A stretch of DNA of 52,431 nucleotides from a virus. The position numbers and the translations under genes were made by a program. The notes beneath the pieces were generated by a model. It was not told the DNA's origin. It did no database searches and was given only the letters and a program-made list of their open reading frames with translations. The stretch lies in the IMG/VR virus record IMGVR_UViG_3300007513_000056, positions 1-52,431 of that record; one strand, written 5' to 3'. This document shows positions 4,872 to 23,734 of this stretch, piece by piece (the stretch's first letter is position 1; each line of letters opens with the position of its first letter).

Positions 4872-5749
4872 TGAACAAAAAAATCTTAAAGGAAATGATA
4901 AAATCAGAACTTCGTGAGTTTCTTGAAGATACAGGAAAACTTTGTGTTGTTCTGATGGGTTTACCTGCGGCTGGTAAGTCTACTTGGATTAATAATGAGG
5001 GTTCAAGTTACATACCAGGATTTACTGGATATAATGTAACTAATTCTGATTCACAAGTTATGGCTTTACAATATGATACTGCTATGTTACACTACCAACA
5101 CTTGTTGAAAGTAGCACCAGATGAAGAACGTAGTAGTGAACGGGGATTTGGTGAATTTGTTGGTAATTCGGCATATACATCAAATCGTGGTAAAATAGTT
5201 ACATTTCCTTTTGATTTTAATTGGTGGTTACAGAATAAAGATAAAGGTAGTAATAATTTTTATAAACTATTGTATAAACCATTTTATGCATCGTTCTTTG
5301 ATATCAGAGATATAGCTAAAGAATATGAAAAGGATTTGTTTAAAACTAAAGTACATAAGGCTGGTAAACTTCTTGTAATAGACACAGTAGCGTCTAAACC
5401 ACCAAAGATTTTACGTAGATTGAAACAAACTCGTGAAGAAGGTTATCATAATATTATTGTATATTTGGAAATAAATTCAGAATTAGCTGTTGCAAGAGAT
5501 AAGTGGAGAGAGAAAAACGTTGGTAGAGGTGTTGGTGCTAAGATTATTGAAAACTATGCTAAATTGATGAGTGGTGCATATAAAGTATATGCTAAAGAAG
5601 GTAAAAATGATAGTGGTTTAGTTGATAGATTAATGTATTTTAAATGGTTTCCAGCCGGAACATCACCAATTAAGGGTGTTTGGAAAAAATTAGAAGATAA
5701 ACGATATTCTATTAAAAGAAAACTTGATAAACTTAGGGATAGAAAATGA
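4871..5749 (+). CDS. P-loop kinase, zeta-toxin/polynucleotide-kinase-like
   Basis: In the 292-residue product a Walker A motif, GLPAAGKST, lies at about residues 30-38. It is followed by N-S-D-S-Q (a likely acidic acceptor-site motif), a central V-I-D-T strand and an Arg-rich segment (ARDKWREKN, GRG) like the lid of zeta-toxin/PNK kinases. Substrate is unknown. The first 20 residues form an amphipathic helix (ILKEMIKSELREFLED) resembling the capsid-targeting helices of other proteins in this window, but the cleavage motif after it is poor. The gene overlaps its neighbours on both sides (1 and 4 bases), coupling it to the endolysin and the adenylyltransferase/ligase fusion. A nucleic-acid-end or nucleotide kinase is the likely role. 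Confidence 0.65.
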   Translation: MNKKILKEMIKSELREFLEDTGKLCVVLMGLPAAGKSTWINNEGSSYIPGFTGYNVTNSDSQVMALQYDTAMLHYQHLLKVAPDEERSSERGFGEFVGNSAYTSNRGKIVTFPFDFNWWLQNKDKGSNNFYKLLYKPFYASFFDIRDIAKEYEKDLFKTKVHKAGKLLVIDTVASKPPKILRRLKQTREEGYHNIIVYLEINSELAVARDKWREKNVGRGVGAKIIENYAKLMSGAYKVYAKEGKNDSGLVDRLMYFKWFPAGTSPIKGVWKKLEDKRYSIKRKLDKLRDRK

Positions 5750-8403
5750 AGGGAATGAAAAAACTCGTAGAATCTATTGTTAGTGATACTCTTGGAGAAT
5801 CCAAGGTACATGGTGCTGACCCTAAAGGTATAAACAGAATTGTTGGTGTTTATGTTGGTAGATTTCAACCATTTCACGCAGGACATTTTAATACTTTTAA
5901 AGAAATGCAAAAAGAGTTTGGTGCTAAGGATACTTTTATAGCTACATCTAATGTAAGTGGTGGTGATAGACATCCTTTTAATTTTAAAGAGAAACAAAAA
6001 ATTATTAGTAAGATGTATAATATCAGAAAAAATCAAATAGTACAAGAAAAAAATGTTTATGCACCAATTAATATCTTGTCCAAATACGATAAAGAACACA
6101 CGGCCGTCGCAGTTGGTTTGGGTGAAAAGGATGGTCAAAGACTTGGTGGTAAATATTTTAAACCATATACTGGCGATGTAACAAAATTGAAGGGTTTTGA
6201 AGATAACGGGTATATTTATATAGTACCAACCTTTAAGTTAAAGGTGGGTGGTTCTAATATAAGTGGAACACAAGTTAGAAAACTTTTAAGTTCCCCAGAT
6301 ATAGATGACAAGAAAAAGAAAAAATTATTTAAGGTTATTTTCGGTAAGTTTGATAACTCAATGTATGAATTTATTACGAACAGATTGATGTTCGACCATA
6401 AGCGACCAAATGGTATACTTTTGACTAAGGAAATTGTAGCTAATTTTTGTGTTGACAATGATGTACCAAAAATGATACAAGAATCTTCTACTACTTTAAC
6501 TACCAATTCCAAACGTGGTGCTAATGCAGGTGGTGGAGCACCAGATGATGGGCCAGGAACATTTTATAGAAATTTTTCAGACTATTATAGAGTAGCTAAA
6601 GATGCAGTACCTTGGTTTATGCAAAAAACTGGTTGGTCTGTTGTTGAATTTATGATAAAAGATAAAGAACCAGAAGTTTTAGACCCTGACATGGATTTTA
6701 CTATGATTGATGACCCAATATCTAATGTTACGTTTGGAAGAGTTGGTTCTATACCAGGTAGTAAACACGCCTCGAAGGATTATTTAGAAAGATTAACAAG
6801 CATATCAGAAAGACTTGGTTGGGAAATACTTAAATGGATGCATAAAGATGGTAAAGGACTTGAGATATCCCAAAAACCAACAGAAGAATATGGTAAAGGT
6901 AAAGCCACATGGTCTTATAAAGGAACTAAAGGTAAGAAAGCTAAATTAAAAGAATCTGTAAAACTTAAAAAGAAAAAAGCGGGTGGTAGTAAATATAGAT
7001 ATACTGCTATAATTGATACACCAGTTTCTATAAATAATGTTGATGTAGGATTACATTCGGATGATAAAAGTGCTATAAAATCATTAAACGTATTGTTGAA
7101 AAGAAAGTTTCCAAAAGAAAAACCATTAAAAGAAAGAATTGATATTGTAGATGATGTAAAAAGGTTAATGACAGAAGGTGGAGCATATGGACATTTAGCA
7201 CATCCATTTGATGATAATAATTTAACATTCAGAGATTTCAGAACAATGATTACTAATACACTACAAGGTAATCTTAGTAAAGAAAAACCAGCTACAGAAA
7301 AGACAGATGGTCAGAATATAATGATAAGTTGGAGAAATGGTAAACTTATAGCGGCTAGAAACAAAGGTCATTTGATGAATAAGGGTGCTAGTGCGTTAAC
7401 TACGAATGGTATTAGTAAGATGTTTGCAGGTAGAGGTGATTTACACAAAGCTTTTGCAGGAGCTATGAGAGATTTAGAAGATGCTATAGGTGCTATTAGT
7501 GATAAACAAAGAGATAAAATTTTTAAAGAGGGTGAACAATTTATGTCTTTGGAAATTATCTATCCAAAAACAGCAAATGTGATTCCATATGAGAAATCAT
7601 TATTGATATTTCATGGTGTACTTCAATATGACGATAAAGGAAATGCAATAGGTGACTATTCTCAATTTGCAAGAATGTTAACTGGTATGATTAAACAAGT
7701 TAACAAGGATGTACAAACTCAATATAAAATAGAATATCCACCAGTTGTAGAATTACCAAAAGTAAAGGACTTTTCAAATCGTAAAAAATTCTATATTGGT
7801 AAATTAAACACTTTACAGAAAAAATATAAGTTAAAACCTAATAACACGTTGGGTGACTATCATCAAGCTTTTTGGACAGAGTATATTAACAAAGCTTTAA
7901 AGAGAACTAAGACTAAATTACCAGAAAGTATGTTTATTAGATTAGTTAAAAGGTGGGCATTCTTTGATAAGTCATATAAGATTCCACAAATTAAAAAGGA
8001 TATGAAAAAATTTCCAAAATTTTTAGATTGGGTTTTAACTACTGATAAAGAAGACCATAAAGCAAAATTTAAAGAAAATATTACACCTTGGGAAGACTTG
8101 TTCTTAGGACTTGGCACAGAGATAATGTTAAATATGACACAATTGTTGACCGCTAACCCAGACGAAGGAGCTCAAAAAATCAAAAAGGATTTAGAAGACA
8201 CTATAAAAGCAGTTCAAAGTAGTGGTGATTTAAATTTGATAAAAAAATTAGAAAAACAATTAAAGAGATTAGAATCAATAGGTGGATTTGGTACTATAAC
8301 ATCAACAGAAGGTATAACATTTACTTTTAATGGTAAGTTATACAAATATACTGGTACTTTTGCTCCAGTTAATCAAATTTTAGGTTTATTAAAGTACATA
8401 TAG
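5746..8403 (+). CDS. Fusion of NMN-adenylyltransferase-like domain and RNA-ligase-like nucleotidyltransferase
   Basis: In the 885-residue product, residues 31-215 carry the nucleotidyltransferase fold signature GRFQPFHAGH (38-47) and ISGTQVR (172-178), as in NadM-type NMN adenylyltransferases. A linker region of unknown fold follows. Residues 485-885 look like a covalent nucleotidyltransferase of the ligase superfamily: K519-T-D-G (motif I), F-M-S-L-E603 (motif III-like), E855-G-I-T-F (motif IV) and K-Y-T-G-T-F-A-P-V-N near the C-terminus. A long helical insertion separates motifs III and IV. The first 19 residues form an amphipathic helix ending LGE before S, which matches a T4 gp21-type cleavage site. 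The 4-base overlap with the kinase suggests a joint RNA-end or NAD-related pathway. The exact reaction is unknown. Confidence 0.75.
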   Translation: MKGMKKLVESIVSDTLGESKVHGADPKGINRIVGVYVGRFQPFHAGHFNTFKEMQKEFGAKDTFIATSNVSGGDRHPFNFKEKQKIISKMYNIRKNQIVQEKNVYAPINILSKYDKEHTAVAVGLGEKDGQRLGGKYFKPYTGDVTKLKGFEDNGYIYIVPTFKLKVGGSNISGTQVRKLLSSPDIDDKKKKKLFKVIFGKFDNSMYEFITNRLMFDHKRPNGILLTKEIVANFCVDNDVPKMIQESSTTLTTNSKRGANAGGGAPDDGPGTFYRNFSDYYRVAKDAVPWFMQKTGWSVVEFMIKDKEPEVLDPDMDFTMIDDPISNVTFGRVGSIPGSKHASKDYLERLTSISERLGWEILKWMHKDGKGLEISQKPTEEYGKGKATWSYKGTKGKKAKLKESVKLKKKKAGGSKYRYTAIIDTPVSINNVDVGLHSDDKSAIKSLNVLLKRKFPKEKPLKERIDIVDDVKRLMTEGGAYGHLAHPFDDNNLTFRDFRTMITNTLQGNLSKEKPATEKTDGQNIMISWRNGKLIAARNKGHLMNKGASALTTNGISKMFAGRGDLHKAFAGAMRDLEDAIGAISDKQRDKIFKEGEQFMSLEIIYPKTANVIPYEKSLLIFHGVLQYDDKGNAIGDYSQFARMLTGMIKQVNKDVQTQYKIEYPPVVELPKVKDFSNRKKFYIGKLNTLQKKYKLKPNNTLGDYHQAFWTEYINKALKRTKTKLPESMFIRLVKRWAFFDKSYKIPQIKKDMKKFPKFLDWVLTTDKEDHKAKFKENITPWEDLFLGLGTEIMLNMTQLLTANPDEGAQKIKKDLEDTIKAVQSSGDLNLIKKLEKQLKRLESIGGFGTITSTEGITFTFNGKLYKYTGTFAPVNQILGLLKYI

Positions 8404-12665: not shown

Positions 12666-13541
12666 ATGAGTTCATTCATAAAACATTTAAAAATTAAAAA
12701 TACTGGAATATTATTTGAGTTACTTTCCAGACAAGTAACTGCAGACATTATTAATAATAGTAAAAAGTCACATGCAGTAGCGATGTTAAAAAAGTATTTC
12801 AAAGAAAATACAGAATTGGGGAAAGAGTTGCAACTTTATAATGTTATTATTACTCAAAAATTTCCAACTGAATATAAAGCTGAAAAAATGGTCGAAGCTG
12901 TAATAAAGTCCAGACAAAAATTATCTAATAAGAAATTACGAGAAGAAAAGTACAATCTTATTAAAGATATAAAAGATACATACGACATTTCAGAATTTTT
13001 TAGTTCTCGTATACCAAATTATAAACTTTTGGCTTCTATATATAAAGTTTTTGGATACACAACAGAGATACATAAGAATGACCCAACCGATGAGGTTAAA
13101 AGTAGGTTTGAAATAATAGAACATATTATTAATAAAAAGATTGAAACGAATGTAAAGACCAATAAAATTATTGAAACTTATAAACAACAAGAAAAAGATA
13201 TGAGATTGTTATCTTATAGTATATTAGTTGATAAGTTTAATTCAAAATATTCATCTTTAAATGAACAACAAAAAGCTTTATTGAAAAAATATATAGAAAA
13301 TGTTTCTAATACTAATTCTTTAAGAGAATTTATTAATAGTGAAGTTGATAAATTGACAAAAGAACTAAAATCAATGTTGAAAAATGTTGATGATAAAGTT
13401 ACAACCATTAAATTAAAAGAAGCTACCAAATTAACTAAGAATATGACAAATCATAAAATTGTTAGAGATGACGATGTTGTTAATTTGATGAGATACTATG
13501 AATTAGTTAAAGAAGTAAAGAATGTCATCACAAAAAACTAA
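12666..13541 (+). CDS. Conserved-looking helical protein beside the portal, unknown function
   Basis: The 291-residue, lysine-rich and mainly alpha-helical product has no membrane segments or enzyme motifs. It opens with FIKHLKIKNTGILFELLSRQ and contains a long coiled-coil-like stretch near the C-terminus (about residues 225-265). The RBS TGGAG precedes the ATG and a promoter-like motif lies upstream. The 3' end overlaps the next gene by 20 bases. Position after the portal suggests a prohead core or portal-assembly factor. I cannot name the family. Confidence 0.75.
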   Translation: MSSFIKHLKIKNTGILFELLSRQVTADIINNSKKSHAVAMLKKYFKENTELGKELQLYNVIITQKFPTEYKAEKMVEAVIKSRQKLSNKKLREEKYNLIKDIKDTYDISEFFSSRIPNYKLLASIYKVFGYTTEIHKNDPTDEVKSRFEIIEHIINKKIETNVKTNKIIETYKQQEKDMRLLSYSILVDKFNSKYSSLNEQQKALLKKYIENVSNTNSLREFINSEVDKLTKELKSMLKNVDDKVTTIKLKEATKLTKNMTNHKIVRDDDVVNLMRYYELVKEVKNVITKN

Positions 13542-13764
13542 GGAACAACAACTTAAAGAGTTGTTGAAGCAGATGATACTTGATGTTTTAGATGAAGCAT
13601 CAGTTTCTGCTAACATAGATGGTGGGGAAGGGCCACCAACAACACCATATTGGGTAAGTAAGAAGAAGAAAAAGAAGAAAGCTGGATATGGTGGTGGTCA
13701 TAAACAACCAACAGTCTTAGGATATATGTTGGCTATTGACCCAAATTTGAGAAGAGTTTCTTGA
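13522..13764 (+). CDS. Small candidate internal head protein with capsid-targeting-like helix
   Basis: The 80-residue product opens with the amphipathic helix LKELLKQMILDVLDE followed by A. L-D-E before A fits the T4 gp21 cleavage rule. The remaining 55 residues hold a run of seven lysines within VSKKKKKKKAGYGGGH, a plausible DNA-binding tail. The start lies inside the previous gene (20-base overlap), so translation is probably coupled. I infer a packaged internal protein. The sequence alone does not prove it. Confidence 0.65.
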   Translation: MSSQKTKEQQLKELLKQMILDVLDEASVSANIDGGEGPPTTPYWVSKKKKKKKAGYGGGHKQPTVLGYMLAIDPNLRRVS

Positions 13765-13771
13765 ATCTATT

Positions 13772-13972
13772 ATGCCGATACAGTGGGATAGTAATGGCCC
13801 CACTTTTTTGAATAGATTAAGAAGTTTATTTAAATTAAAAAGAAGATGGGTCATTGAAAAAACTAAAGTTAGAGGTCAAGAACCAAGTAAAGTGGAAACT
13901 TTAAAATTTCTTGATGGGTTGATAAAATCATTGAATGAAATGAGAGAAGAAATTCTTAAAAGTAGGAGTTAA
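13772..13972 (+). CDS. Small basic protein, unknown
   Basis: The 66-residue product is basic in its first half (L-F-K-L-K-R-R-W) and helical in its second half (FLDGLIKSLNEMREEIL). It starts 7 bases after the upstream stop without a strong RBS and ends 2 bases before the next start, so it fits the operon. No family recognised. Confidence 0.55.
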   Translation: MPIQWDSNGPTFLNRLRSLFKLKRRWVIEKTKVRGQEPSKVETLKFLDGLIKSLNEMREEILKSRS

Positions 13973-13974
13973 CT

Positions 13975-14589
13975 TTGAAACGATTTAAAATAAAAGAAGT
14001 ACATCGTTGGTTAAACAATCTTCCAGAAAATAAGTGGAGAAAAATTTATAAAGTTGATGCAAAAAGAGTTGCTCATTTTATCAATCATGGTGGTAATGTA
14101 GAATTACCCGTTACTCTAAGAAGAAAATACGGAGATACCGAATTTGTAAGAGAGAAAAAACTTGCAAAAGGATTCTTACTTCAGAAAATTGATGAAAAGA
14201 AGAAAAATGAGTCTATAATTACTTTAAAACAAATGGTTTATGAAGAATTAAAGAAGTTAGACAGAAGTGGTATATTAAAGGAGAGACTATCAGACGAAGC
14301 TAGAGAATTAAGATTGTTTATTGATAATGATGCTAAAATTTATAAGTCAAGATATATACCTATTCTTAAAAATTTATCTAAATTTAAGAAAAGGAATAAA
14401 TTTAATCCTAAATTAGCTGTTAAAGCTTTTAAATACTTAGTTGACGATGGTGCTAAATCATATGCTAAAAATTACGGAGGTAGTGCTCGTGATATGTTTA
14501 CTAAGAAGGATAGGTTAGTGTTGGCAAAAGATTATGCCGAAGAGTTTGAAACTCAATTTAATAATAAAGAATTTGATTTTATGAAATAA
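13975..14589 (+). CDS. Lysine-rich head-region protein, unknown
   Basis: The 204-residue product starts at TTG, chosen because AGGAG lies 5 bases before it and the frame has no other start in a good position. Residues 1-60 look like a compact basic domain (W-L-N-N-L-P-E-N-K-W-R-K). From residue 80 the helix IITLKQMVYEELKKL resembles the shared targeting helix, and ILKE follows it. The C-terminal half is helical. Lying directly before the prohead protease, it is probably a prohead core component. Confidence 0.65.
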   Translation: MKRFKIKEVHRWLNNLPENKWRKIYKVDAKRVAHFINHGGNVELPVTLRRKYGDTEFVREKKLAKGFLLQKIDEKKKNESIITLKQMVYEELKKLDRSGILKERLSDEARELRLFIDNDAKIYKSRYIPILKNLSKFKKRNKFNPKLAVKAFKYLVDDGAKSYAKNYGGSARDMFTKKDRLVLAKDYAEEFETQFNNKEFDFMK

Positions 14590-14600
14590 GGAGTTAGAAA

Positions 14601-15221
14601 ATGACGAAATCACTTTTAATAGATACTTTACTTTTTGAAGTATCATCACAACATATAAACGAATCAATTACAGATAATTCTGGTAAATTGATTGTTAGTG
14701 GTGTACTACAAAGAGCTAACTCAAAGAATCAAAATGGAAGAGTATATCCAAAAGAGATTTTAATGAGAGAATCTACAAAATATACAAAAGAATTTGTAAA
14801 GGAAGCTCGAGCGATGGGAGAACTTGACCATCCAGAGTCTTCGGTTGTTAATTTAAAGAATGTTTCTCACAATGTAAGAGATATGTGGTGGGAAGGAGAC
14901 AATCTACTTGGTAAGATTGAAGTTTTAACAACACCTGCTGGAAATATATTAAAAGAACTATTTAAAGCTGGTATTAAACTTGGTATTTCTTCCCGCGGTA
15001 TGGGTTCAGTATCAGAAAGTAAAGATGATGATACAGTAGAAGTACAAAAAGACTTTGAATTGATAGCTTTTGATTTCGTATCCAATCCATCTACACATGG
15101 TGCGTTTATGCATCCAATGAACGAAAGTGTTAATAGAGAAGATGTAAGGGAAGATGGAACTATTTGTGATAAGTGGTGTAAAACCGAATCTATAATTTCT
15201 GATATATTAAGTGGTATTTAA
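14601..15221 (+). CDS. gp21: Prohead maturation protease, gp21-like
   Basis: The 206-residue serine protease has the herpesvirus-assemblin-like fold used in T4 head maturation. His77 in GELDHPES and the serines of GISSRGMGS (about 130-131) are the expected catalytic residues, and F-V-S-N-P-S-T-H-G-A closes the fold. NGRVYP near residue 45 is also typical. The N-terminus carries LLFE and INE sites that could be self-cleavage points. It cuts scaffold, capsid and internal proteins after L/I-x-E. RBS AAGGAG. The many L-x-E sites in neighbouring genes are its probable substrates. Confidence 0.93.
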   Translation: MTKSLLIDTLLFEVSSQHINESITDNSGKLIVSGVLQRANSKNQNGRVYPKEILMRESTKYTKEFVKEARAMGELDHPESSVVNLKNVSHNVRDMWWEGDNLLGKIEVLTTPAGNILKELFKAGIKLGISSRGMGSVSESKDDDTVEVQKDFELIAFDFVSNPSTHGAFMHPMNESVNREDVREDGTICDKWCKTESIISDILSGI

Positions 15222-15223
15222 AT

Positions 15224-15811
15224 ATGAATCATAATATGTGGAAAAAATGGAAGAATTTCCGAATTGAACAATTAAATGAGGGTGATGGAGATGAAACTCT
15301 TGAAGGTTTGATTGCTGGAATGACTGGTGCGGCACAAAATCTTATTCCTACCTTAACTAATATGCCAAAGTATATGGATTTCATCATGAAACCTGATGAC
15401 CCTAAAAAAACACCAGAAGAAAATGAATTAAACCAAGAAGTTGTTCGTAATGCGTTTGAAGATTTAGATGAGAATGCTAGATTACTTATAAAAAATTACA
15501 AATTTATAAAGAAGTACGTCAAAGAAGAATATCAATTTGACGTTGATGTAGTTTCAAAGGATGAAAGTTTAACAGAAGTTGGACAATGGGTTATAAAAAT
15601 TAAAAAGGGTAAAAGAGTTAAAAAATTACAATGTCCACCAGGATTTAAAGTAGATAGTAGTGGAAGAAAATGTAAAAAACAGACTGCTAAAGATGTAAAA
15701 ATTGGAAAAAAAGCCGCTAGAAAACGTGCAAAGGCTATGAAAGCTAAAATGGGTAAGATTTTAAAGAAACGAGCGAAGTCTATGAAAAAACGACAAAGTA
15801 TGAATCTATAA
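15224..15811 (+). CDS. Candidate internal head protein with histone-like basic tail
   Basis: The 195-residue product opens with a short helix ending E-Q-L-N-E before G-D-G, a gp21-type cleavage motif at about residue 19. The middle is acidic and helical. From about residue 125 it becomes extremely basic, with a small C-P-P-G-F-K-V-D-S-S-G-R-K-C loop, then a tail rich in K, R and A (KKAARKRAKAMKAKM and similar) to the end. This layout suits a DNA-condensing protein packaged in the capsid. The start is 2 bases after the protease stop. Confidence 0.65.
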   Translation: MNHNMWKKWKNFRIEQLNEGDGDETLEGLIAGMTGAAQNLIPTLTNMPKYMDFIMKPDDPKKTPEENELNQEVVRNAFEDLDENARLLIKNYKFIKKYVKEEYQFDVDVVSKDESLTEVGQWVIKIKKGKRVKKLQCPPGFKVDSSGRKCKKQTAKDVKIGKKAARKRAKAMKAKMGKILKKRAKSMKKRQSMNL

Positions 15812-15812
15812 A

Positions 15813-15986
15813 ATGAAAAATTTTACAAATAAAGAAAATAATGCTATAAAAAAAATTGATAGAGGTCTCGGTGATACAATTGCACGAGCTATCAATACAG
15901 TATCTCGTGGTACAATTAAAGAATGTGGTGGATGTACTAAAAGAAAAGAATTTTTAAATAAAGTAGTTCCTTACAAGAGAGATTAA
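15813..15986 (+). CDS. 57-residue protein with C-G-G-C motif, recurrent small phage protein type
   Basis: The ORF fills the gap between two genes with a 1-base overlap at its end (TAATG). The product reads I-D-R-G-L-G-D-T-I-A-R-A-I-N-T-V, then E-C-G-G-C-T-K-R-K-E-F-L-N-K-V-V-P-Y. I recall similar small proteins (GLGDT..., CxCxxRK..LNK) in other phage genomes, but their function is unknown. The two cysteines could bind metal as a dimer. Confidence 0.7.
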   Translation: MKNFTNKENNAIKKIDRGLGDTIARAINTVSRGTIKECGGCTKRKEFLNKVVPYKRD

Positions 15987-16774
15987 TGAAATTAAAAGAT
16001 ATAGTTCAAGGTAAAGTTTATACTGATAAAGATAGACCACCATTTCAAGTAAAGGAAGATTTGAGTAAACAAGGATTTGCTGAATTAAAAGGTCAAGCAA
16101 GATATCTTGCAGGTTCAGTAAAAGATTTAGTAAAAGGTATCCAACAAAAAAATGATGATGTTATAGAAACAGAATTGGATTACATAATTGCCAAATCAAA
16201 GTTAATGAAGGATATGTTAAGTGATAAAAGATATAACGAATCCGTAAATGAAGGTAAATTCAAAACAACACTTCTTCCACAAAAGAAAGATATTAACAGA
16301 CTTAAAATAAGATTTCAAAATGACCCTCGTAGATTATACACATTAAAAGATATATCAGTAGGACATAAAGTAAAAGGTGACCCATCAGGAACAAGTTATT
16401 TGTTTGTAGCACCAGGTAATAGAAAAGAACGATTTACAAAAGAAACTTGGCATTTAGCTAATGAAAAAGGTTGGTTATCACTTGAATCCATAAATGAAGC
16501 GGCTTTTAGTTCACCAGAAGCACAACAAATTTTAAATCAAGATATTACGAAAATGTCAAAAATTTTAGGTAAAGCATCTCAACAAATAATTAAAATAATG
16601 ATGGATGGTGTAAAGGGTGGTAGATATGATGCTATGGATATTGTAAGAGGAATTGATACTGGTCCATTAAATAGAACACATGAGGGTGAAAGACCTTTTA
16701 TGAAAATGTTATGGAGAAAAGTTAGAGATGGTTTTCGTAGATATTCACCAAATAAAAAATTGAAAAGAAAATGA
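15986..16774 (+). CDS. Head-region protein with two internal gp21-type sites, unknown
   Basis: The 262-residue product has an N-terminal helical domain (about 30-90: ARYLAGSVKDLVKGIQQKND), then ESVNE before G. A central mixed domain ends LESINE before A-A-F, and a helical domain and basic C-terminus (RYSPNKKLKRK) follow. The second site fits I-x-E before A. Two sites would divide the protein into three products, which I infer but cannot prove. It overlaps both neighbours by 1 and 4 bases. Confidence 0.6.
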   Translation: MKLKDIVQGKVYTDKDRPPFQVKEDLSKQGFAELKGQARYLAGSVKDLVKGIQQKNDDVIETELDYIIAKSKLMKDMLSDKRYNESVNEGKFKTTLLPQKKDINRLKIRFQNDPRRLYTLKDISVGHKVKGDPSGTSYLFVAPGNRKERFTKETWHLANEKGWLSLESINEAAFSSPEAQQILNQDITKMSKILGKASQQIIKIMMDGVKGGRYDAMDIVRGIDTGPLNRTHEGERPFMKMLWRKVRDGFRRYSPNKKLKRK

Positions 16775-17550
16775 TTAAAAAGATTGGTAGTAAGTGGGCA
16801 GTCTATCCTAAAAAAGGCGGGAAACGACTTGGAACACATGATTCAAAGGAAAAAGCGTTGAAACAATTAAAAGCTATAGAGATATCCAAAAGGATGCGTT
16901 CAGAAGTAGAAAAGATAGTAAAAGAAATACTATTAGAAGCTGATACTGGGGCTGTAGTTGGTGGTGACTTTGTTGGTAGTGTTGCCGGAGATGTATCTAA
17001 CACTATTCAACAATCTGGTTATGATAAATCATATGTTGTCATTGGTAGAACATTTTTTAAAAGAGATGATGGTGGTGGTCACACATATAATTCTTTATAT
17101 ACAGTTTTATTACATAAAGATAAGGATGAGATTGTTATAAATGCTTTAAATTTGGGTACTGGTGATTCTGCAACTGTATTTAGAAGTAATATTGAATCTT
17201 TTGGACAAGATACACGATTTCCAAGTGATGTTCGTAATATTGTTTATGAGTTTTTGGAGATACCAGACCCATTATTTCTTGAAGCTTGGGGTAGAGGTAC
17301 ATCAAGTTGGTTCGGAGGTGGAGGCCCGTCTAAACCAATGGATAAGAATATGCCAAAGAAATTTATAATCAATATACCATCTTTAAAAGATGCTAAAAAG
17401 ATGTTAAAACAATTAAAAGTCAAGTGGAAATCAGTTGTTGACGATTTAACCAAACCTGGTATTTGGTATTTTAGAAATAGAAAAGGTGATACAGTTGGTG
17501 GTTGGAAACAAACACAAAAGACTTTATACTATGAACGAAGACTTTTTTAA
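16771..17550 (+). CDS. Head-region protein: small K-W-V domain, targeting-like helix, globular domain
   Basis: In the 259-residue product, residues 1-38 form a small beta-rich module (G-S-K-W-A-V-Y-P, T-H-D-S-K-E-K-A, Q-L-K-A-I-E) often found at the ends of phage proteins. Residues 44-57, VEKIVKEILLE, are a targeting-like helix ending L-L-E before A-D-T, a good gp21 site. The rest is a globular domain of unknown fold with Gly-rich SSWFGGGGPS. Cleavage would remove the first module and release the globular part inside the head. 4-base overlap with the upstream gene. Confidence 0.6.
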   Translation: MIKKIGSKWAVYPKKGGKRLGTHDSKEKALKQLKAIEISKRMRSEVEKIVKEILLEADTGAVVGGDFVGSVAGDVSNTIQQSGYDKSYVVIGRTFFKRDDGGGHTYNSLYTVLLHKDKDEIVINALNLGTGDSATVFRSNIESFGQDTRFPSDVRNIVYEFLEIPDPLFLEAWGRGTSSWFGGGGPSKPMDKNMPKKFIINIPSLKDAKKMLKQLKVKWKSVVDDLTKPGIWYFRNRKGDTVGGWKQTQKTLYYERRLF

Positions 17551-17557
17551 GTAATCT

Positions 17558-17570
17558 AATATTTATATAT
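17558..17570 (+). promoter_or_regulatory. Candidate promoter motif directly before an ATG
   Basis: AATATTTATATAT ends one base before the ATG at 17572. If it is a promoter, transcripts would be leaderless for that start, or the true start is the one at 17938. Confidence 0.4.
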
Positions 17571-17571
17571 A

Positions 17572-18954
17572 ATGGAAAAGTCTAAAAAATGGAAGACGTT
17601 GGTTCAAGTTTCTAAAGAAGCCAATAGTTTTTCTGGTAAAAAGGGTGATAAGTTTGATGGAAGAGGATACTTCCCAAACAAAAATGCTAAATTGGCTAAT
17701 GAAGTAGAAGAAAAAGCTAAAGCAAAAGTACAAGGTAGTGCAATAAAACCTAAAAGAATTAAGAGTGTATATGAAGACTATGAAGAAGAAGTTCTTGAAA
17801 AACAAATTGGAAATGGAATGACAAGTGTTCCATCAAAGATGAAAAAACATAAAGTTGATAGTACACAACAAAGTGGAGCTGGAATTAAATATATAAATCC
17901 AGATAATAATTATAAACAAATTTTTGGAGAAAGTAAAATGAAAAAATCTCAATTTAAATATATGATAAAACAAATGATAGGTGAAATTTTAGAAGGAAAA
18001 GGTAAAGCTCCTGGTTCCAAATCTGCTGGTGGGGCTTCACCAGCTCTACCTGGTGGAATATCTAAAGGTGGATATACATTACGGTCTTATACTTCATTAG
18101 GTGGTGATGCTGGTGAAAGAGCAGGTTCAGAAAGAGGTTGGAAAGGTGGAAATGTTGGGTCAAGAAAATCGTTTAGAACTACTAAAGCTTCTGCACTAGC
18201 GTCTATAATAAAAGGTCAGAACTTAGGTAAAATTGATGCTTGGAGAACGGATGCATTAACTGATAAGAGAGCAATTATCGGAAAATCTAAATACCAAGGT
18301 ACAAGAACTCCAGGTGGTAGAGGAACTAAACAAAAAGCTGTTAGTGGTACACTTGACAATCTAGCTTCAATACGTGCGTCTGATGATGTTAAAAGAAAAT
18401 CCCAAGGTGGAAGGTCAACCGCATTAGGTGGTGCTAAAATGAAGGTGAGTGCTTCTTACATCAACCAAAAGTCTGCTGCTAAAAGTGCTTATAACTCGGC
18501 AATAAATGCTGAGATTACGGCTCTACAAACTCTTCAAGCTGCTTATATAAAAGGTGGTGGTCAGACAATTGAAAAAACTTATGTAGCTATACAAAATTTA
18601 ATTGATGATTTAGGATATAAAAAAGAAGAATATGCATTAAGATGGGATTTCGCGACAGCGGCTTATAATGGTAATACAACTGCTATGAATAACGCTCGTA
18701 CAAATATAGAATCTAAAAGAGATACAATAAAGAAGAGAGCTAAGTCTGTCGGAGAAGACCCGGCCGGGTCTATCGGTGGAAGAACTCAAGAATGGGAAAG
18801 AGGTATCAAAGTGAGAGAAGGTGATAAAGTTACCGATGGAAAACAAACTTATCAAGCTACCATACCTAAAGGAGCAAGAGACCATGAATGGATGTGGTCT
18901 AATATACCACCTGCCGAATCAATGCGAGACGGCTTCTGGCAACCATCAAAATAA
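17572..18954 (+). CDS. Head-region protein; likely internal start at 17938; paralogue of next gene
   Basis: The full frame encodes 460 residues. The start at 17572 has no RBS. An internal ATG at 17938 (residue 123) has GGAG 8 bases before it and begins FKYMIKQMIGEILE before G, a clear targeting helix with a gp21 site. From there on the product is paralogous to the next gene: shared features include A-W-R-T-D-A-L, I-I-G-K-S-K-Y-Q, S-A-S-Y-I-N, Y-V-A-I-Q-N-L-I-D-D-L and KRAKSVGEDP. The first 122 residues are a charged extension unmatched in the paralogue, ending I-F-G-E before S. Two products or a cleaved polyprotein are both possible. Probably an internal head protein. Confidence 0.65.
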   Translation: MEKSKKWKTLVQVSKEANSFSGKKGDKFDGRGYFPNKNAKLANEVEEKAKAKVQGSAIKPKRIKSVYEDYEEEVLEKQIGNGMTSVPSKMKKHKVDSTQQSGAGIKYINPDNNYKQIFGESKMKKSQFKYMIKQMIGEILEGKGKAPGSKSAGGASPALPGGISKGGYTLRSYTSLGGDAGERAGSERGWKGGNVGSRKSFRTTKASALASIIKGQNLGKIDAWRTDALTDKRAIIGKSKYQGTRTPGGRGTKQKAVSGTLDNLASIRASDDVKRKSQGGRSTALGGAKMKVSASYINQKSAAKSAYNSAINAEITALQTLQAAYIKGGGQTIEKTYVAIQNLIDDLGYKKEEYALRWDFATAAYNGNTTAMNNARTNIESKRDTIKKRAKSVGEDPAGSIGGRTQEWERGIKVREGDKVTDGKQTYQATIPKGARDHEWMWSNIPPAESMRDGFWQPSK

Positions 18955-18967
18955 AGGTAAAAAAATA

Positions 18968-19681
18968 ATGAACCAAACTGATATTAGAAAAATAATTAAA
19001 GAATGTATTCGTGAACTTATGGAAGCACCAGTTTCCAAAGGTGGTCATCCCGTTCAAGATTACTCTAAAGTAGCTGGTGGTGAAACAGGTCAAAGAAAAC
19101 AAGATAAAGGTTTATTTGACTTAGCAACCAAGGTTTCGAAAGGAATAACAAGTTCTGATATAGATGGATGGAGACATCAAGCTTTGTTGAGTGGTGATAA
19201 ATTTATTGTACCTAAATCCAAATATCAGAAACAACAAACTAAAACAAAATCTGTTAGTGCTAATATAGATAGTTTAGCGGCTATTAGGGGTAAAGAAGAC
19301 CAAGAAAGACGTGCAACTGGTGGTAGAGTTGGATACACTAAAGTTTCTGCAACATATATCAATAACCAATCTAATGCTAAAGCTACATATAATAAAGCAA
19401 TAGATGATGAGATAAAAAGATTGGGTGCATTACAATCACAAACAAAAGCTGGTGATAAAAATTATGTTGCATTACAAAATTTAATAGAAGATTTAGAAAT
19501 AAGAAAAGAAGAATACTCATTAAAGTGGGAATTTGTTACGGCGGCGTTCAATAATGATGAAAATAAGATGAATAATGTTCGGTCTGATATACAAGCCAAA
19601 AGAGATGAGAGATTAAAACGAGCCAAGTCAGTTGGTACTGACCCAAAGGGTGAAGAAGGAAAAGAACAACCCAAAAAATAG
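18968..19681 (+). CDS. Candidate internal head protein, paralogue of previous gene
   Basis: The 237-residue product opens with IRKIIKECIRELME before A-P-V, the clearest targeting helix plus L-x-E cleavage site in the window. The rest matches the C-terminal part of the previous gene: G-W-R-H-Q-A-L, V-P-K-S-K-Y-Q-K, S-A-T-Y-I-N, Y-V-A-L-Q-N-L-I-E-D-L, W-E-F-V-T-A-A-F and KRAKSVGTDP, mainly helical. I chose the ATG at 18968 over an upstream in-frame ATG at 18821, which lies inside the previous gene. The 13 bases after the previous stop include AAAGGTAAAA. Confidence 0.7.
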   Translation: MNQTDIRKIIKECIRELMEAPVSKGGHPVQDYSKVAGGETGQRKQDKGLFDLATKVSKGITSSDIDGWRHQALLSGDKFIVPKSKYQKQQTKTKSVSANIDSLAAIRGKEDQERRATGGRVGYTKVSATYINNQSNAKATYNKAIDDEIKRLGALQSQTKAGDKNYVALQNLIEDLEIRKEEYSLKWEFVTAAFNNDENKMNNVRSDIQAKRDERLKRAKSVGTDPKGEEGKEQPKK

Positions 19682-19691
19682 GGGATTTACA

Positions 19692-20345
19692 ATGAAAAAG
19701 AAAGTATTAAAAGAATTTTTTATGGCAGGTGGTGTAGTCACTGGAAAGCCATTTAAGGTGAATGACGAAGTTCGTGGTTCTGGTATTAAATTATCGTCCT
19801 TGGTCAAGGAAGGAAACCCAGAGTCTTGGTCTGAATCAGAAGCAACTATTAATGTTAATCGTTTTCTTGAAGACGTTAAGAATTATGGTCATATAGGTAA
19901 AGATATTTATAGAGAAACAAATTTAAAAGACATAGCTCTTAAACTATCAGAAATTGTTGAGTCTGCAAAGATTCATACTATGAATGAAACTGATGATTGG
20001 TTTGATAGAGTGTCGGTAAAACGAAATATGAAAGAACTTGGTGGTTTAGCTACTCAATTTGTTAAAGCTGCGAAAGAATCAAATTTAATGCAACGTAGAA
20101 TGGAAACTCTTTATGAAGATATGGGTAACATTTTAAGTAGATATTACGAAATAGAGGATTCTAATACTTTAAGTGAAGCTGATGTAAAAGACTTAGATAA
20201 ACCAGAGAGTGGTGACAAAGAAGCATATCAGAAATTCTTTCAAGCGGCTATGAAGAAGTTTGGTGTTGATTCACCAGATGAACTTAGTGATGAAGATAAG
20301 AAAGATTTCTTTAATTGGGTAGATAAAAACTGGAAAAATTCATAA
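19692..20345 (+). CDS. Head-region helical protein with conserved-looking C-terminal motif
   Basis: The 217-residue product starts at ATG 19692 (GGGGATTTAC before it). An in-frame start at 19632 lies inside the previous gene and is rejected. The middle is helical (DMGNILSRYYEIED). NTLSE before A at about residue 165 is a gp21-type site. The last 45 residues read Y-Q-K-F-F-Q-A-A-M-K-K-F-G-V, D-E-L-S-D-E-D-K-K-D-F-F-N-W-V-D-K-N-W-K, a short module that I recall at the end of other phage proteins. The stop overlaps the next ATG by 1 base. Confidence 0.65.
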   Translation: MKKKVLKEFFMAGGVVTGKPFKVNDEVRGSGIKLSSLVKEGNPESWSESEATINVNRFLEDVKNYGHIGKDIYRETNLKDIALKLSEIVESAKIHTMNETDDWFDRVSVKRNMKELGGLATQFVKAAKESNLMQRRMETLYEDMGNILSRYYEIEDSNTLSEADVKDLDKPESGDKEAYQKFFQAAMKKFGVDSPDELSDEDKKDFFNWVDKNWKNS

Positions 20346-20665
20346 TGACAAAACATTTTTTAAAAGAAAATTACGAAAGATTATTCAAAACACAATTATC
20401 AGAATCAACTGATATATTTTTAGGAAAAGAAATACCAATTAGTAAACTTAAAAAGTTTGGTAAGATGAAAGGTAAGGTATTTTACTTAGATGGTACGAAA
20501 CAAGGTATGTTAGCAGACATTGAGGGTAAAAACGTTGTTGGTTTTAAAATAACAGCTGGAATGAGAACAGATGATGATGAGAATTTTCATACGTCACTCG
20601 AAGATTTAGCTGATGCACTAAAAATGAAACTATCAGATGACTATGGAGATTACGAACTTAGTTAA
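20345..20665 (+). CDS. Small head-region protein, candidate internal protein
   Basis: The 106-residue product opens with a basic/amphipathic helix ending K-T-Q-L-S-E before S-T-D (residues 17-21), a possible gp21 site. A small acidic beta-rich domain follows (V-F-Y-L-D-G-T-K-Q, V-G-F-K-I-T-A-G-M-R-T-D-D-D-E). No family recognised. It is coupled to the upstream gene by a TAATG overlap. Confidence 0.6.
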   Translation: MTKHFLKENYERLFKTQLSESTDIFLGKEIPISKLKKFGKMKGKVFYLDGTKQGMLADIEGKNVVGFKITAGMRTDDDENFHTSLEDLADALKMKLSDDYGDYELS

Positions 20666-20686
20666 AAAAAGAAAAGTAGGTTTTAT

Positions 20687-20893
20687 ATGGCAATAAAGGT
20701 AGATGTAAGAGATAATAAGATAGAGTTCGCTCTACGAAAGTTTAAGAAAAAAGTAAAAGAGTCTGGGTTATTACTCGAATTGAGAGAAAGGGAGTTCTAT
20801 AAGAAGCCTTCTCATATAAAAAGACTCAAAAAATCTAAGGCAAAACTTAGAATTAAATATGATAAGTTAAGAATGGAACGGGAAAAAACCTGA
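20687..20893 (+). CDS. rpsU: Phage-encoded ribosomal protein bS21
   Basis: The 68-residue product matches bacterial S21 along its length: I-K-V-D-V-R-D-N at the start, A-L-R-K-F-K-K-K-V-K-E-S-G, then L-L-E-L-R-E-R-E-F-Y-K-K-P-S and a basic Lys/Arg tail. S21 is a small, exchangeable 30S protein near the anti-Shine-Dalgarno helix that aids mRNA initiation. Viral bS21 genes are known from marine phages. Here it ends the unknown head-gene run and sits just before the scaffold/capsid leader, so it would be made late. AGTAGG precedes the ATG. It could replace host S21 and favour late mRNAs, which is inference. Confidence 0.9.
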   Translation: MAIKVDVRDNKIEFALRKFKKKVKESGLLLELREREFYKKPSHIKRLKKSKAKLRIKYDKLRMEREKT

Positions 20894-20919
20894 AGGGGGT
20901 TTGAACGTTTTACTTTTTT
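20886..20919 (+). terminator. Weak possible terminator after bS21
   Basis: AAACC (20886-20890) can pair with GGTTT (20898-20902), followed by a T-rich stretch ending CTTTTTT. The stem is only 5 bp and begins inside the bS21 stop region, so function is uncertain. Confidence 0.25.
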
Positions 20920-20923
20920 AGCT

Positions 20924-20936
20924 GATATTTATATAA
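20924..20936 (+). promoter_or_regulatory. Candidate late promoter of the scaffold/capsid operon
   Basis: GATATTTATATAA, an exact match to the recurrent core, lies 126 bases before the scaffold ATG and immediately upstream of the structured leader, which would therefore be transcribed. Confidence 0.55.
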
Positions 20937-20944
20937 AAATCAAA

Positions 20945-21024
20945 TACACCATTTTACCATGCCTGGTAAGTCCTGATATGGTGTACTGAAGATAGTTCAG
21001 TATTATTGTTCCTAAATAACAATA
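20945..21024 (+). ncRNA. Structured 5' leader of the scaffold/major capsid mRNA
   Basis: Three consecutive helical units fill this 80-base stretch. First is an 8-bp outer stem (TACACCAT 20945-20952 with ATGGTGTA 20978-20985) enclosing a perfect 6-bp hairpin with a TGCC loop (TTACCA/TGGTAA, 20954-20969). Second is a 5-bp hairpin (CTGAA/TTCAG, 20986-21000). Third is a 7-bp hairpin (TATTGTT/AACAATA, 21004-21024). The RBS TTGGAG follows at about 21037. It does not fit a tRNA. It may stabilise the message or control translation of the most abundant proteins. The fold is my reading, not a computed structure. Confidence 0.55.
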
Positions 21025-21049
21025 GAATCCTTTAATTTGGAGAATTAAA

Positions 21050-22099
21050 ATGGACGACCTTTTGAAAAATGCAATCGCAGATGCAAAAGCAGTTCGTGAG
21101 ACCGCGTTGGAAAACGCCAAAGTAGCTTTACAAGAAGCCTTTACTCCAAGACTAAATCAAATGCTTTCACAAAAGATTCAGAATGAAGTCGAAGACGAAT
21201 TAGAAGATGATGAATTTTATGATGAAGAAGACGAAGAAGCTGAAGAAGAAGAAGCAGAAGCTGAAGACGCTGTAGAAGATGAAGCTGAAATAGATGCTGA
21301 AGAAGGTGCAGAAGAAGAAGCTGAAGAAGCTGGTGAAGAAGAAGCTGAAGAAGCCGAAGAAGAACCAGAAGCTGAAGAAGGTGATGAAGAAGAAGCAGGT
21401 GATGAAGAAGATGACGACCTTGACCTTGAAGCAGTTCTGAGAGAATTAGAATCAGACCTGACTGAAGAGGAAGAGGAAGATGAATTCGCTTCACCTGAAG
21501 AAGAAGACGAAGTTGACCTTGGTGATGCACCAGTTGACATCGCTGCTGATGATTCTGAGTTCATGCCTGAACCTGCTAATGATGAAGGTGATTTAGATTT
21601 AGATGCCGAAGCACCAGCTGATGAAGAGGGTGAAGAGGATATGGAAGAGGAACTTGACCTTGAAGAAGTGTTGAAAGCTCTACAAGAAGAAGAGGAAGAA
21701 GAGGAAGAAGAAGTGGATGAAATTACTCAACTTAAATCTGAACTTGGAGAACATCGCGAAGTAGTTAAGTATCTACGGTCTAAATTAAATGAGGTCAATC
21801 TACTCAATGCTAAACTCTTGTTTACTAACAAGTTGTTCAGGAATCATTCTATGACTAATGAACAGAAAATTAAAGTCATTGAGCAGTTTGATAGAGCAAA
21901 GAATCTACGTGAAGTTAAGTTGGTATTTTCAACTATAGCTGAATCGTTTGGTTCTTCTGCTAAAAAATCTGTAAATGAGAACAAAGGTTCAGCTTCTAAA
22001 GCTGTTGCTTCTACAAAACCTAAAACCGAAACTAAAGAAGTTTTGGCTGAAGGTTCTGAGTTGAAGAACAGATTTCAGAAACTAGCTAAAATTCTTTAA
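21050..22099 (+). CDS. gp22: Prohead scaffold (core) protein, gp22-like
   Basis: The 349-residue product has a basic amphipathic N-terminal helix with A-L-Q-E before A (about residue 30). A very acidic central region of about 180 residues follows (runs of E and D with A), and then a coiled coil (about 225-290). It ends VLAEG then SELKNRFQKLAKIL, where L-A-E before G is a gp21-type site. It sits directly before the capsid gene, as gene 22 does in T4. Scaffold forms the prohead core and is degraded by gp21 before packaging. Longer than T4 gp22 (269) mainly because of the acidic region. Confidence 0.88.
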   Translation: MDDLLKNAIADAKAVRETALENAKVALQEAFTPRLNQMLSQKIQNEVEDELEDDEFYDEEDEEAEEEEAEAEDAVEDEAEIDAEEGAEEEAEEAGEEEAEEAEEEPEAEEGDEEEAGDEEDDDLDLEAVLRELESDLTEEEEEDEFASPEEEDEVDLGDAPVDIAADDSEFMPEPANDEGDLDLDAEAPADEEGEEDMEEELDLEEVLKALQEEEEEEEEEVDEITQLKSELGEHREVVKYLRSKLNEVNLLNAKLLFTNKLFRNHSMTNEQKIKVIEQFDRAKNLREVKLVFSTIAESFGSSAKKSVNENKGSASKAVASTKPKTETKEVLAEGSELKNRFQKLAKIL

Positions 22100-22123: not shown

Positions 22124-23734
22124 ATGTCTAAAAATAGTAATTTAAAATCTATTGAAGGCCTTATGGATGGCTATAATCCATATCAGGAACGGTTAGAGGA
22201 AACTCGTAAGTTAGTAGGAAAGTGGGAGCCCACTGGATTACTCGAAGGAATAGATTCCGAAACTAAAGTCATGAGTATGGCTACTCTTTTGGAAAACCAA
22301 GCTCGTCAGTTAATTGATGAGTCTTCTAAAACAAGCACAACTGCTAACTCTGAAGAGTGGAGTGGTGTTGCTCTTCCTTTGGTACGTAGGATTTTTGGTG
22401 AATTAGCTGCACAAGATTTCGTATCTGTTCAGCCAATGAACCTTCCTTCAGGACTTATTTTTTACCTTGATTTCAAATATGGTACCGCACAACCAGGTCA
22501 CACTCAAAACTCAGATGTTCATGGTAACACTTCTGGTTCTGATGCTGACGCTTCTGGTGGTCTATATGGGGCAGGTAAATTTGGATATTCAATCAACGAA
22601 TCTGTTGCAACAATAACAAGCTATAGTTCAGCTTCTGTTGTATGGGGTGATGTTGATTTCGAACCATCTTTGAGTTCTTCTCTTGATAACCTGAGAAAAG
22701 TTACTGTCGCTCTTGCGGACGATGGTATGACAAATCCAGATTTCGATGGCGTTAGAGCTTTTGAAATTTCTGGTTCATCAACCGCGGCTATCGCTGACTA
22801 CTATCCTGCTTACTCAAGTTGGGATGGTTCAAACTGGAACTTTGTTGTAAAGACTTCTGGTGCGTACGAAGTTGATGGAAATATCTATGTGAAGTATCAC
22901 AAAGCACCAACCGATGTTACTCGTGGTGATTTTGAAGATTCTTCACCAACCGAACCAGCAACGGATATTGGTATTCCAGAAATAGATATCCAAATGAAAT
23001 CTATTCCGATTGTTGCAAAAACTCGTAAATTGAAAGCTGTATGGACTCCTGAGTTAGCTCAAGACCTTAACGCTTATCATTCTGTTGACGCAGAAGCTGA
23101 GTTAACTGCAATGTTATCTGAGTACATTTCAATGGAAATTGATTTGGAAATCCTTGATATGTTGATGGGTAATGCTAATGCTAAAACAGAACGTTGGTCT
23201 GCTAGAGTAGGATATGAGTATAATTCTTCTACCGCTCTTTTCGCAGAATCATCTGCTAATGCATCAGCTTATGTAAAAGGAACTTGGTTCCAGACTCTCG
23301 GTAATAAGATACAAGCTGTATCTAATGCTATTCATCAGAAGACTCTACGTGGTGGAGCTAACTTTATGGTCGTAAGTCCTGAAGTTGCTACTATCATTGA
23401 GTCTATCCCTGGATATGCATCTGATTCAGATGGTAATGCTGCTAATAGTTCATTCGCAATGGGTGTTCAAAAAGTTGGACTATTGAACAACCGTTTTACG
23501 GTCTACAAGAATCCATACATGCACGAGAACGTAATACTTGTTGGTTTCAGAGGAAGTAATTTCTTAGAAACTGGTGCTGTATACGCTCCGTATGTACCAC
23601 TTATCATGACTCCGTTGGTCTATGACCCAACAAACTTTACGCCAAGAAAAGGTGTTATGACTCGTTATGCGAAGAAAATCGTAAGACCTGAGTTCTATGG
23701 TAAAGTTATCGTTGCTGATGTTAATTACGTTTAA
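22124..23734 (+). CDS. gp23: Major capsid protein, gp23-like
   Basis: The 536-residue HK97-fold capsid protein of the T4 type has an N-terminal targeting region ending in W-E-P-T-G-L-L-E41 before G42, a classic gp21 cleavage site. Downstream are P-L-V-R-R-I-F-G-E-L-A-A-Q-D-F-V-S-V-Q-P-M, Y-L-D-F-K-Y-G and the conserved C-terminal part (F-M-V-V-S-P-E-V-A, V-Y-A-P-Y-V-P-L). RBS AGGAG precedes the ATG. Codon use appears more C-rich at third positions than in its neighbours, fitting high expression. An intrinsic terminator follows. Confidence 0.95.
   Translation: MSKNSNLKSIEGLMDGYNPYQERLEETRKLVGKWEPTGLLEGIDSETKVMSMATLLENQARQLIDESSKTSTTANSEEWSGVALPLVRRIFGELAAQDFVSVQPMNLPSGLIFYLDFKYGTAQPGHTQNSDVHGNTSGSDADASGGLYGAGKFGYSINESVATITSYSSASVVWGDVDFEPSLSSSLDNLRKVTVALADDGMTNPDFDGVRAFEISGSSTAAIADYYPAYSSWDGSNWNFVVKTSGAYEVDGNIYVKYHKAPTDVTRGDFEDSSPTEPATDIGIPEIDIQMKSIPIVAKTRKLKAVWTPELAQDLNAYHSVDAEAELTAMLSEYISMEIDLEILDMLMGNANAKTERWSARVGYEYNSSTALFAESSANASAYVKGTWFQTLGNKIQAVSNAIHQKTLRGGANFMVVSPEVATIIESIPGYASDSDGNAANSSFAMGVQKVGLLNNRFTVYKNPYMHENVILVGFRGSNFLETGAVYAPYVPLIMTPLVYDPTNFTPRKGVMTRYAKKIVRPEFYGKVIVADVNYV

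Follow-up and report, generated by a model that had tools for sequence, protein, structure and literature searches.

Predicted cargo tags and polyprotein-like reading frames between the portal and scaffold genes of a T4-type phage head module

The window analysed here, a stretch of 52,431 bases from an uncultured virus record (IMG/VR record IMGVR_UViG_3300007513_000056), is a T4-type head-to-tail block with terminase, portal, protease, scaffold and capsid genes, in which the gp20-, gp21-, gp22- and gp23-like genes of a T4-type head module lie in order. The interval from portal to scaffold is probably a cassette of cargo genes for the T4-type prohead core, characterized by targeting tags, by cutting with a gp21-like protease and by fusion of cargo into polyprotein-like open reading frames (ORFs). 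Short helical tags, N-terminal or sometimes internal, would bind the scaffold core and bring unrelated proteins into the prohead, and the gp21-like protease would cut behind the Glu of hydrophobic-x-E, in most cases with A, G or S as the next residue, freeing the mature cargo alongside the cleavage of scaffold and capsid. Adjacent cargo genes appear to have merged in many genomes, giving polyprotein-like ORFs whose junctions would retain the tag's cleavage half (typically ES-V/I-N-E), so that one tag could import several modules that are later separated by the protease. The tags, the sites, their conservation and the coincidence of sites with module boundaries can be read directly from the sequences and are presented first.

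Protease-site motifs in the portal-to-scaffold interval

The presumed cutter is the gp21-like prohead (head maturation) protease encoded at 14601..15221 (phrog_207, E 4.5e-56); this gene and all tags, junctions and head genes located below lie on the plus strand. Relatives of the protease are encoded in at least 588 IMG/VR stretches, related contigs being common there, and the sample of relatives comprised the best 80 of these stretches by protease and 80 more by capsid protein. The nearest named relatives by the window protease were Microcystis phage Mel-JY01 (62%) and Flavobacterium phage immuto (53%), and annotated phages gave no match in a megablast search with 16 kb of the window. ORFs called in the window and in loci L001-L222 yielded 2962 distinct proteins, which were divided into the interval, defined as the genes between portal and scaffold (532 proteins), and a comparison set of 2234 others, with the scaffold, capsid and nicotinamide mononucleotide (NMN) adenylyltransferase-like (NMNAT-like) proteins (196) left out of both groups. 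The proteins were collapsed to 134 interval families and 1124 families elsewhere, or 1119 for the counts of tag forms, from which five misplaced families were removed.

An N-terminal site, scored as [LIVMF]-x-E-[AGS] with the Glu (P1) at residues 6-30, was observed in 42 of the 134 interval families and 95 of the 1124 elsewhere (Fisher P 3.7e-12), while shuffled N-termini gave an expectation of 12 +/- 3 and 80 +/- 8 families, respectively. No interval enrichment was observed when the Glu of the motif was replaced by D (7/134 v 86/1124), K (20/134 v 115/1124) or Q (4/134 v 50/1124), and the N version was depleted in the interval (3/134 v 88/1124). The P1 Glu is also conserved, at 0.76 for the interval sites, whereas Glu in other contexts of these proteins reaches 0.46-0.63 and the Glu of this motif in other genes 0.61. 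Applied to phage T4 as a control, the rule marked 9 of 10 known gp21 substrates, only Alt being missed.

Several results count on the other side. Hydrophobic-x-E followed by K, R, N, D, T or Q was likewise enriched in the interval, to a lesser extent (39/134 v 194/1124, P 0.001), as was the reversed motif (22/134 v 73/1124, P 2e-4), so part of the N-terminal signal is composition; moreover, the interval families share modules and are not fully independent. Since 22 of 270 other T4 ORFs also match the rule with P1 at 6-30 (28/270 at 6-33), a lone motif match is weak evidence, and for T4 gp21 and gp23 the match of the rule differs from the documented cut. That the whole pattern is a reading artefact, short amphipathic helices and L-x-E-A being common by chance, is strongly disfavoured and was given hardly any weight; it could draw on these T4 matches and on the lack of family-level enrichment of the strict long helix given below, but the enrichment at family level, the conservation, the T4 control and the boundary tests described further on all speak against it.

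Differential tag forms were observed, and at least three occur. The strict long helix, in a version that admits A, G, S or V after the Glu, was found in 3/134 interval and 6/1119 other families (P 0.06), which is not a significant enrichment, although it is kept within each of these few families, and it was rejected as a general tag. The short form M-x-KLK-x-h-h-x-E was found in 24/134 interval and 19/1119 other families (P 1e-13), with 6 of the 14 other families listed lying on truncated contigs that carry the same interval, and it resembles the T4 internal-protein tag MKTYQEFIAE↓A (the arrow marks the documented or predicted cut). The third form, W-K-x-F/Y-R, was found in 9/134 interval and 2/1119 other families. 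Several interval proteins that are not otherwise related (L115, L142, L152 and L153) share an FGxPLPTL element after the short tag, and this element may be a second core-binding one. The preliminary description of this DNA had read a single shared amphipathic helix, removed by a T4-type protease, on a set of unrelated proteins, and had suggested a search for the helix plus L-x-E across relatives; the relatives sampled here show a site that is enriched and kept, and no significant family-level enrichment of the strict helix. The proposal of a protease-removed tag of T4 type is thus partly supported, by the interval enrichment, the conservation of the cut residue, the T4 control and the virion enzyme of cyanophage S-SCSM1 considered below, whereas the idea of one shared helix gives way to the three forms.

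Candidate tags of the window and predicted cut sites in scaffold and capsid

The strongest tag case in the window is the helix LKELLKQMILDVLDE-A (13522..13596) of the 80-residue protein at 13522-13764, with a cut predicted after E25 (DVLDE↓ASVSA). Among 79 distinct genes directly downstream of homologues of the 12666 gene, 72 have the site before a conserved TP motif, with 56 different helix sequences among the matching genes and with A (50), V (17), S (1) or another residue (4) after the Glu, i.e., A, V or S in 68; the seven misses are L067, where the site is present and the TP motif is spelt differently, L163, with M after the Glu, and five genes without a matching site. The neighbouring 291-residue protein at 12666-13541, between the portal and the 13522 gene, has conserved counterparts throughout the clade (its family had 86 members in the first clustering) and gave no convincing PHROG or Pfam match.

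A tag of the W type, MNHNMWKKWKNFRIEQLNE-G (15224..15280), stands on the 195-residue protein 15224-15811 and ends in LNE↓G at residue 19; an aligned site is present in all 10 proteins of this family, window included, with about 11 extra residues in the tag of five of them. The helix VEKIVKEILLE↓A (16897..16938), with a cut predicted after E56 (LLE↓A), belongs to the protein 16771-17550, and the site is kept in 6 of 7 matches including the window (LLE↓A, LTE↓A, VSE↓A in three and LLE↓S), the helix having diverged; three of these six are nearly identical, and the seventh (L052) has only the first 40 residues in common. As it lies at residue 56, this tag falls outside a definition as a short N-terminal targeting segment. 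The protein 18968-19681 carries the N-terminal tag MNQTDIRKIIKECIRELME-A (18968..19024; given as IRKIIKECIRELME-A in the preliminary description), with the cut predicted at E19, and its AlphaFold model places a helix at residues 3-17, although the low confidence of the model (mean predicted local distance difference test, pLDDT, 52) restricts its use to the tag helix. Its paralogue, MKKSQFKYMIKQMIGEILE-G (IKQMIGEILE↓G, 17938..17994), lies inside the ORF 17572-18954 with an FGE↓S upstream, and the cut Glu (E19 in 18968) is invariant in 9/9 aligned rows, some of them near-identical.

The site at 17938 is residue 141 of the 460-residue ORF 17572, or residue 19 if translation starts at the internal ATG 17938, which leaves room for the explanation that this and similar internal tags reflect internal translation starts producing nested proteins, with no polyprotein cleavage. 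A GGAG 8 nt upstream of this ATG, the shorter paralogues in L205 and L210 that begin exactly at the position of the 17938 Met, and the annotated internal start of T4 gene 21 fit such starts; we nevertheless consider the explanation distinctly unlikely, as the long copies in L205 and L210 have a Shine-Dalgarno-like GGGGA while FGE-S is kept, and only 5 of 72 junction motifs of the kind described in the next section have a Met within 10 residues downstream.

Outside the interval, the tag MKGMKKLVESIVSDTLGE-S (5746..5799) was observed at the N-terminus of an 885-residue cytidylyltransferase/NMN-adenylyltransferase-like protein (ORF 5746-8403; Pfam PF01467, 28.2 bits with a cut-off of 21; phrog_395, E 1.8e-14), whose relatives have tags ending in LDE↓A, LGE↓A, LTE↓A or IDE↓G. 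Several NMNAT-like relatives have D after the Glu (LTE↓D, IEE↓D), which makes their tags less certain and counts against the cargo reading. An isolated cyanophage, S-SCSM1, offers a comparison: 45 virion proteins were reported for it by mass spectrometry, NMN adenylyltransferase ORF91 among them, according to the available part of PMC9602691. ORF91 starts MKSFLQFLKE↓AAESG, a T4-type tag, and shares phrog_395 with the 5746 protein, so that an enzyme of the same PHROG with an N-terminal L-x-E↓A tag is reported from virions; it differs in having 409 residues and in lying beside other virion proteins in a cyanophage, whereas the window protein has extra regions. S-SCSM1 was not among the matches listed in a direct tblastn search with 5746. 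Near ORF91, ORF93 carries the GenBank label 'virion protein', which from the GenBank record and the available text of PMC9602691 we infer to rest on mass spectrometry; it corresponds to the DUF3008 module that opens the polyprotein-like ORFs L121 and L157, and its N-terminus has no such tag.

Two further candidates are less typical. A possible tag ILKEMIKSELREFLE-D (4871..4930) is present on a P-loop kinase-like protein (ORF 4871-5749; AAA_33 and Zeta_toxin both below the Pfam cut-off), where D at P1' makes the site not a standard one, and a possible tag MTKHFLKENYERLFKTQLSE-S (20345..20404) of 20345-20665 shows the motif only (LSE↓S, residue 20), no relative of this protein being found in the protein set. 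The gene at 13975, which had been listed as a weaker form, has no hydrophobic-x-E↓[AGS] site and was rejected as a tagged protein.

Among the tags of the preliminary description, the four main ones (13522, 16771, 17938 and 18968) were present where described, and these and the weaker 15224 hold in relatives, where the helix diverges and the cut residue stays. Their placement at or near the N-terminus applies to 13522 and 18968 and does not apply to 16771, nor to 17938 unless the internal ATG is used; a short stretch at the N-terminus that ends in [LI]-x-E, with a small residue next, was found in 13522, 15224, 18968 and 5746, and in 17938 given the internal start. The tag at 5746, which lies beyond the region covered by that description, possibly the one at 4871, and two internal cut sites in 15986 are additional. 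Protease, scaffold and capsid aside, some six to eight proteins of the window carry a tag, compared with IPI, IPII, IPIII and Alt in T4, and for this window the suggestion of a much larger packaged set than in T4 is only moderately true; a larger cargo number would arise from the internal junctions of polyprotein-like ORFs, to which that suggestion did not refer.

The gp22-like scaffold (21050..22099), assigned by position and family conservation without a strong PHROG match, has conserved C-terminal cut sites: a site of the kind read earlier as LAE-G occurs 14-26 residues from the C-terminus in 63 of 64 scaffolds, and three sites occur in the last 75 residues in 50 of 64. In the gp23-like major capsid protein (22124..23734; phrog_138, E 1.4e-73), the LLE-G noted earlier as its cut motif is indeed conserved (72/73), but LLEG also stands at residue 18 of T4 gp23, a protein that loses 65 residues according to the available text of PMC9026906, which fits its LTE↓A site at residue 65, and LLE-G was therefore rejected as the mature cut. 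The counterpart of the T4 site is LIDE↓S at E66 (nt 22310-22324), the predicted mature cut, and the site recurs in 73/73 capsid proteins, the Glu being followed by A or S in 71 and by T in the other two. The residues after the predicted capsid cut read about [AS][SNA]x[TS][GA] in 60 of 73 proteins, and those after the cut of the 13522 family read [AVSG][SNT]x[TS][GAS] in 65 of 72 matching members; similar post-cut residues (about [AS]SxTG) in two unrelated families support a common protease, the signature being a post hoc observation without a null comparison.

Polyprotein-like reading frames and their junctions

Long ORFs of up to 1133 residues (L121), with repeated ES-[VIL]-x-E-[AGS] stretches, were found in the interval across the relatives. 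The junction motif ES[VIL][NTKD]E[AGS] occurs 43 times in 27,091 residues of interval families and 15 times in 219,526 residues elsewhere, i.e., about 20-fold more densely in the interval. Five of the seven families elsewhere that have the motif are interval genes on truncated contigs, and of the other two, one lies between the NMNAT-like and terminase genes in immuto and the second upstream of the contig G001 NMNAT-like gene. In immuto an 841-residue ORF (L163:4278-6803) with an ES[VIL]xE junction stands between the NMNAT-like and terminase genes, a location that suggests polyprotein-like cargo may also sit outside the portal-to-scaffold interval; the protease-to-scaffold intervals of Mel-JY01 and immuto have no ES-V/I-N-E junctions. 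Among 39 complete protease-to-scaffold intervals, chosen by distinct proteases with six pairs still more than 97% alike, at least one ES[VIL]xE junction was observed in 24 and an ORF longer than 300 residues in 29.

Module boundaries were located where a module fused in one protein starts or ends another protein. Module starts fell on a protease site in 32 of 76 cases (11.9 +/- 3.1 expected) and module ends in 17 of 35 (6.8 +/- 2.2 expected), values that none of 2000 permutations reached in either case, while the controls with D, K and E[KRQ] stayed at chance level. On the other hand, the span tested contains no site at 44 of the 76 boundary starts, S[VIL]xE by itself fell short of significance at the ends (6/35, P 0.13), 15 of the 39 complete intervals have no ES[VIL]xE junction, and in some junctions and stand-alone tags the Glu is followed by N, V or D. 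The boundary starts without a site also favour the explanation that the N-terminal tags are real and of T4 type and the long ORFs are ordinary multidomain proteins whose Glu-rich linkers are never cut. This explanation is unlikely, since the coincidence with boundaries is specific to hydrophobic-x-E↓[AGS] and the junction motif is so much denser in the interval.

For modules of L121, L157 and L115, the PHROG matches are to distinct small families (10538, 6437 and 9437). In a Pfam search of five long ORFs, DUF3008 was above the cut-off in L121 and L157 and below it in L075; L115 and L173 gave no match, and no catalytic domain was above the cut-off in any of the five. The chances are about even that such ORFs are true polyproteins, in which one tag would escort several folded modules, the maturation protease would cut at the tag remnants, and repertoires would evolve by fusing and shuffling of tag-module units.

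In the window, the 262-residue polyprotein-like ORF 15986..16774 has three modules and two junctions, modules 1 and 3 occurring alone and all three occurring with other partners in relatives. Junction 1 (16232..16255) reads YNE↓SVNE↓G, with cuts predicted after E85 and E89, and module 1, which ends just before it, forms its own short protein in L159 and the last module in L114 and L218; four other fused copies of module 1 read NES[VI]NE at the junction, followed by G, N, V or G. Junction 2 (16481..16501) reads LESINE↓A, with a cut predicted after E171, and stand-alone copies of module 3 (L010, L012 and L205) start MIKLK[DN]IVEESVNED, whereas in the fused module 3 ESINE is preserved and the MIKLK stretch is gone. 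The AlphaFold model of this ORF (mean pLDDT 67) has two confident helical modules, module 1 being a well-ordered helical hairpin (pLDDT about 90), with both junctions in low-confidence stretches between modules (87-100 and 164-170); less favourably, confidence is also low within module 2 (125-133 and 135-150), which was modelled from one sequence, as the alignment lacked two module-2 rows. A Foldseek search of the model against the PDB gave no match at E <= 0.001. One of the three ES[VIL]xE matches in the window lies in 15224 and is probably not a junction. A similar module junction, FLE↓A at residue 171 (17275..17286), is present in 16771-17550. Here four homologues of 172-178 residues, of which three are nearly identical, come to their end (IPDPLMSSF), and L205 has YDE↓A.

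The ORFs with multiple sites could instead be scaffold or core proteins like T4 gp22, gp67 and gp68, diced into fragments that exit and make room for DNA, with no cargo at all, which we hold to be a real though lesser possibility. In T4 the cutting of core proteins yields several fragments, most of which leave the head, as stated in the available text of PMC9026906, several sites are present in T4 gp22 and gp67, and the body of the 15224 protein matches the 'head scaffolding' family phrog_3503 (E 2.1e-9). Against core proteins of this kind stand the conservation of the modules, which are also found as separate genes, several of these carrying a tag of their own, the well-ordered model of 15986 module 1, and the S-SCSM1 proteins, the NMNAT-like enzyme being reported in virions (PMC9602691, available text) and the DUF3008 protein being labelled a virion protein.

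Relation to known head-processing systems and neighbouring genes

The tag-and-cut system, as predicted, is of T4 type, in an under-studied clade. The targeting sequence of T4 IPI, IPII and IPIII is similarly an N-terminal propeptide of 10-19 residues ending in L/I-x-E on unrelated bodies and cut by a gp21-family protease, and portal, scaffold and capsid here are of T4 type as well. Several features differ from T4, namely the several tag forms, the location in the portal-to-scaffold interval beside the protease, the internal tags and the multi-module ORFs with junction sites. In the head proteolysis of phiKZ and SPN3US (gp175, gp245), many internal proteins are likewise present, some with propeptides cut after Glu by the prohead protease, and these propeptides have several sites, as here (PMC9026906 and PMC10052503, available text). 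SPN3US differs in its motif A-x-E and in that 13 of its 14 sites, in 9 proteins, remove N-terminal propeptides, according to the same part of PMC10052503, and the word 'polyprotein' is absent from the main text of that paper. Polyvalent proteins (Iyer et al. 2017, PMC5512222) are phage proteins of 2-15 domains which, in the available text, are also predicted to be packaged and injected; their processing is attributed there to metallopeptidase domains of their own, whereas the proposal here involves retained tag halves and a prohead protease encoded separately. Tags as a means for T4-like phages to load diverse proteins have already been proposed in print (PMC9026906, available text).

The polyprotein layout with retained tag halves, a reading based on sequence, would be the main new element, and it was not found in the literature searched, which left out most subscription papers and bioRxiv. 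Core binding, cleavage, virion retention and injection of the cargo are inferred steps; if they are true, tags readable from sequence would provide a list of candidate proteins carried into the host, most of them without known function, and the capsid protease would double as a cargo-processing enzyme. Polyproteins are processed by proteases in many RNA viruses. If true, the layout points to a means of loading a phage head with several proteins in fixed ratios, and it also offers a testable role for virion-borne enzymes of nicotinamide adenine dinucleotide metabolism.

Other genes were also observed in the window. The portal is a phrog_213 match. A ribosomal protein S21-like gene (20687-20893; phrog_21469) adjoins the scaffold gene, with a homologue in the same place in most relatives listed, Mel-JY01 included, and not in immuto. 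An ORF at 23823-24248, between the capsid gene and the neck gene, resembles an HNH-type homing endonuclease by eye, and a short ORF at 771-1055 (HGYGVFAKKDIMTGEILEE) presumably resembles a SET-domain protein. The 2515-residue ORF at 28815-36362, with long S-G-T-D-G-T-S-G repeats at its start, is probably a tail or fibre protein.

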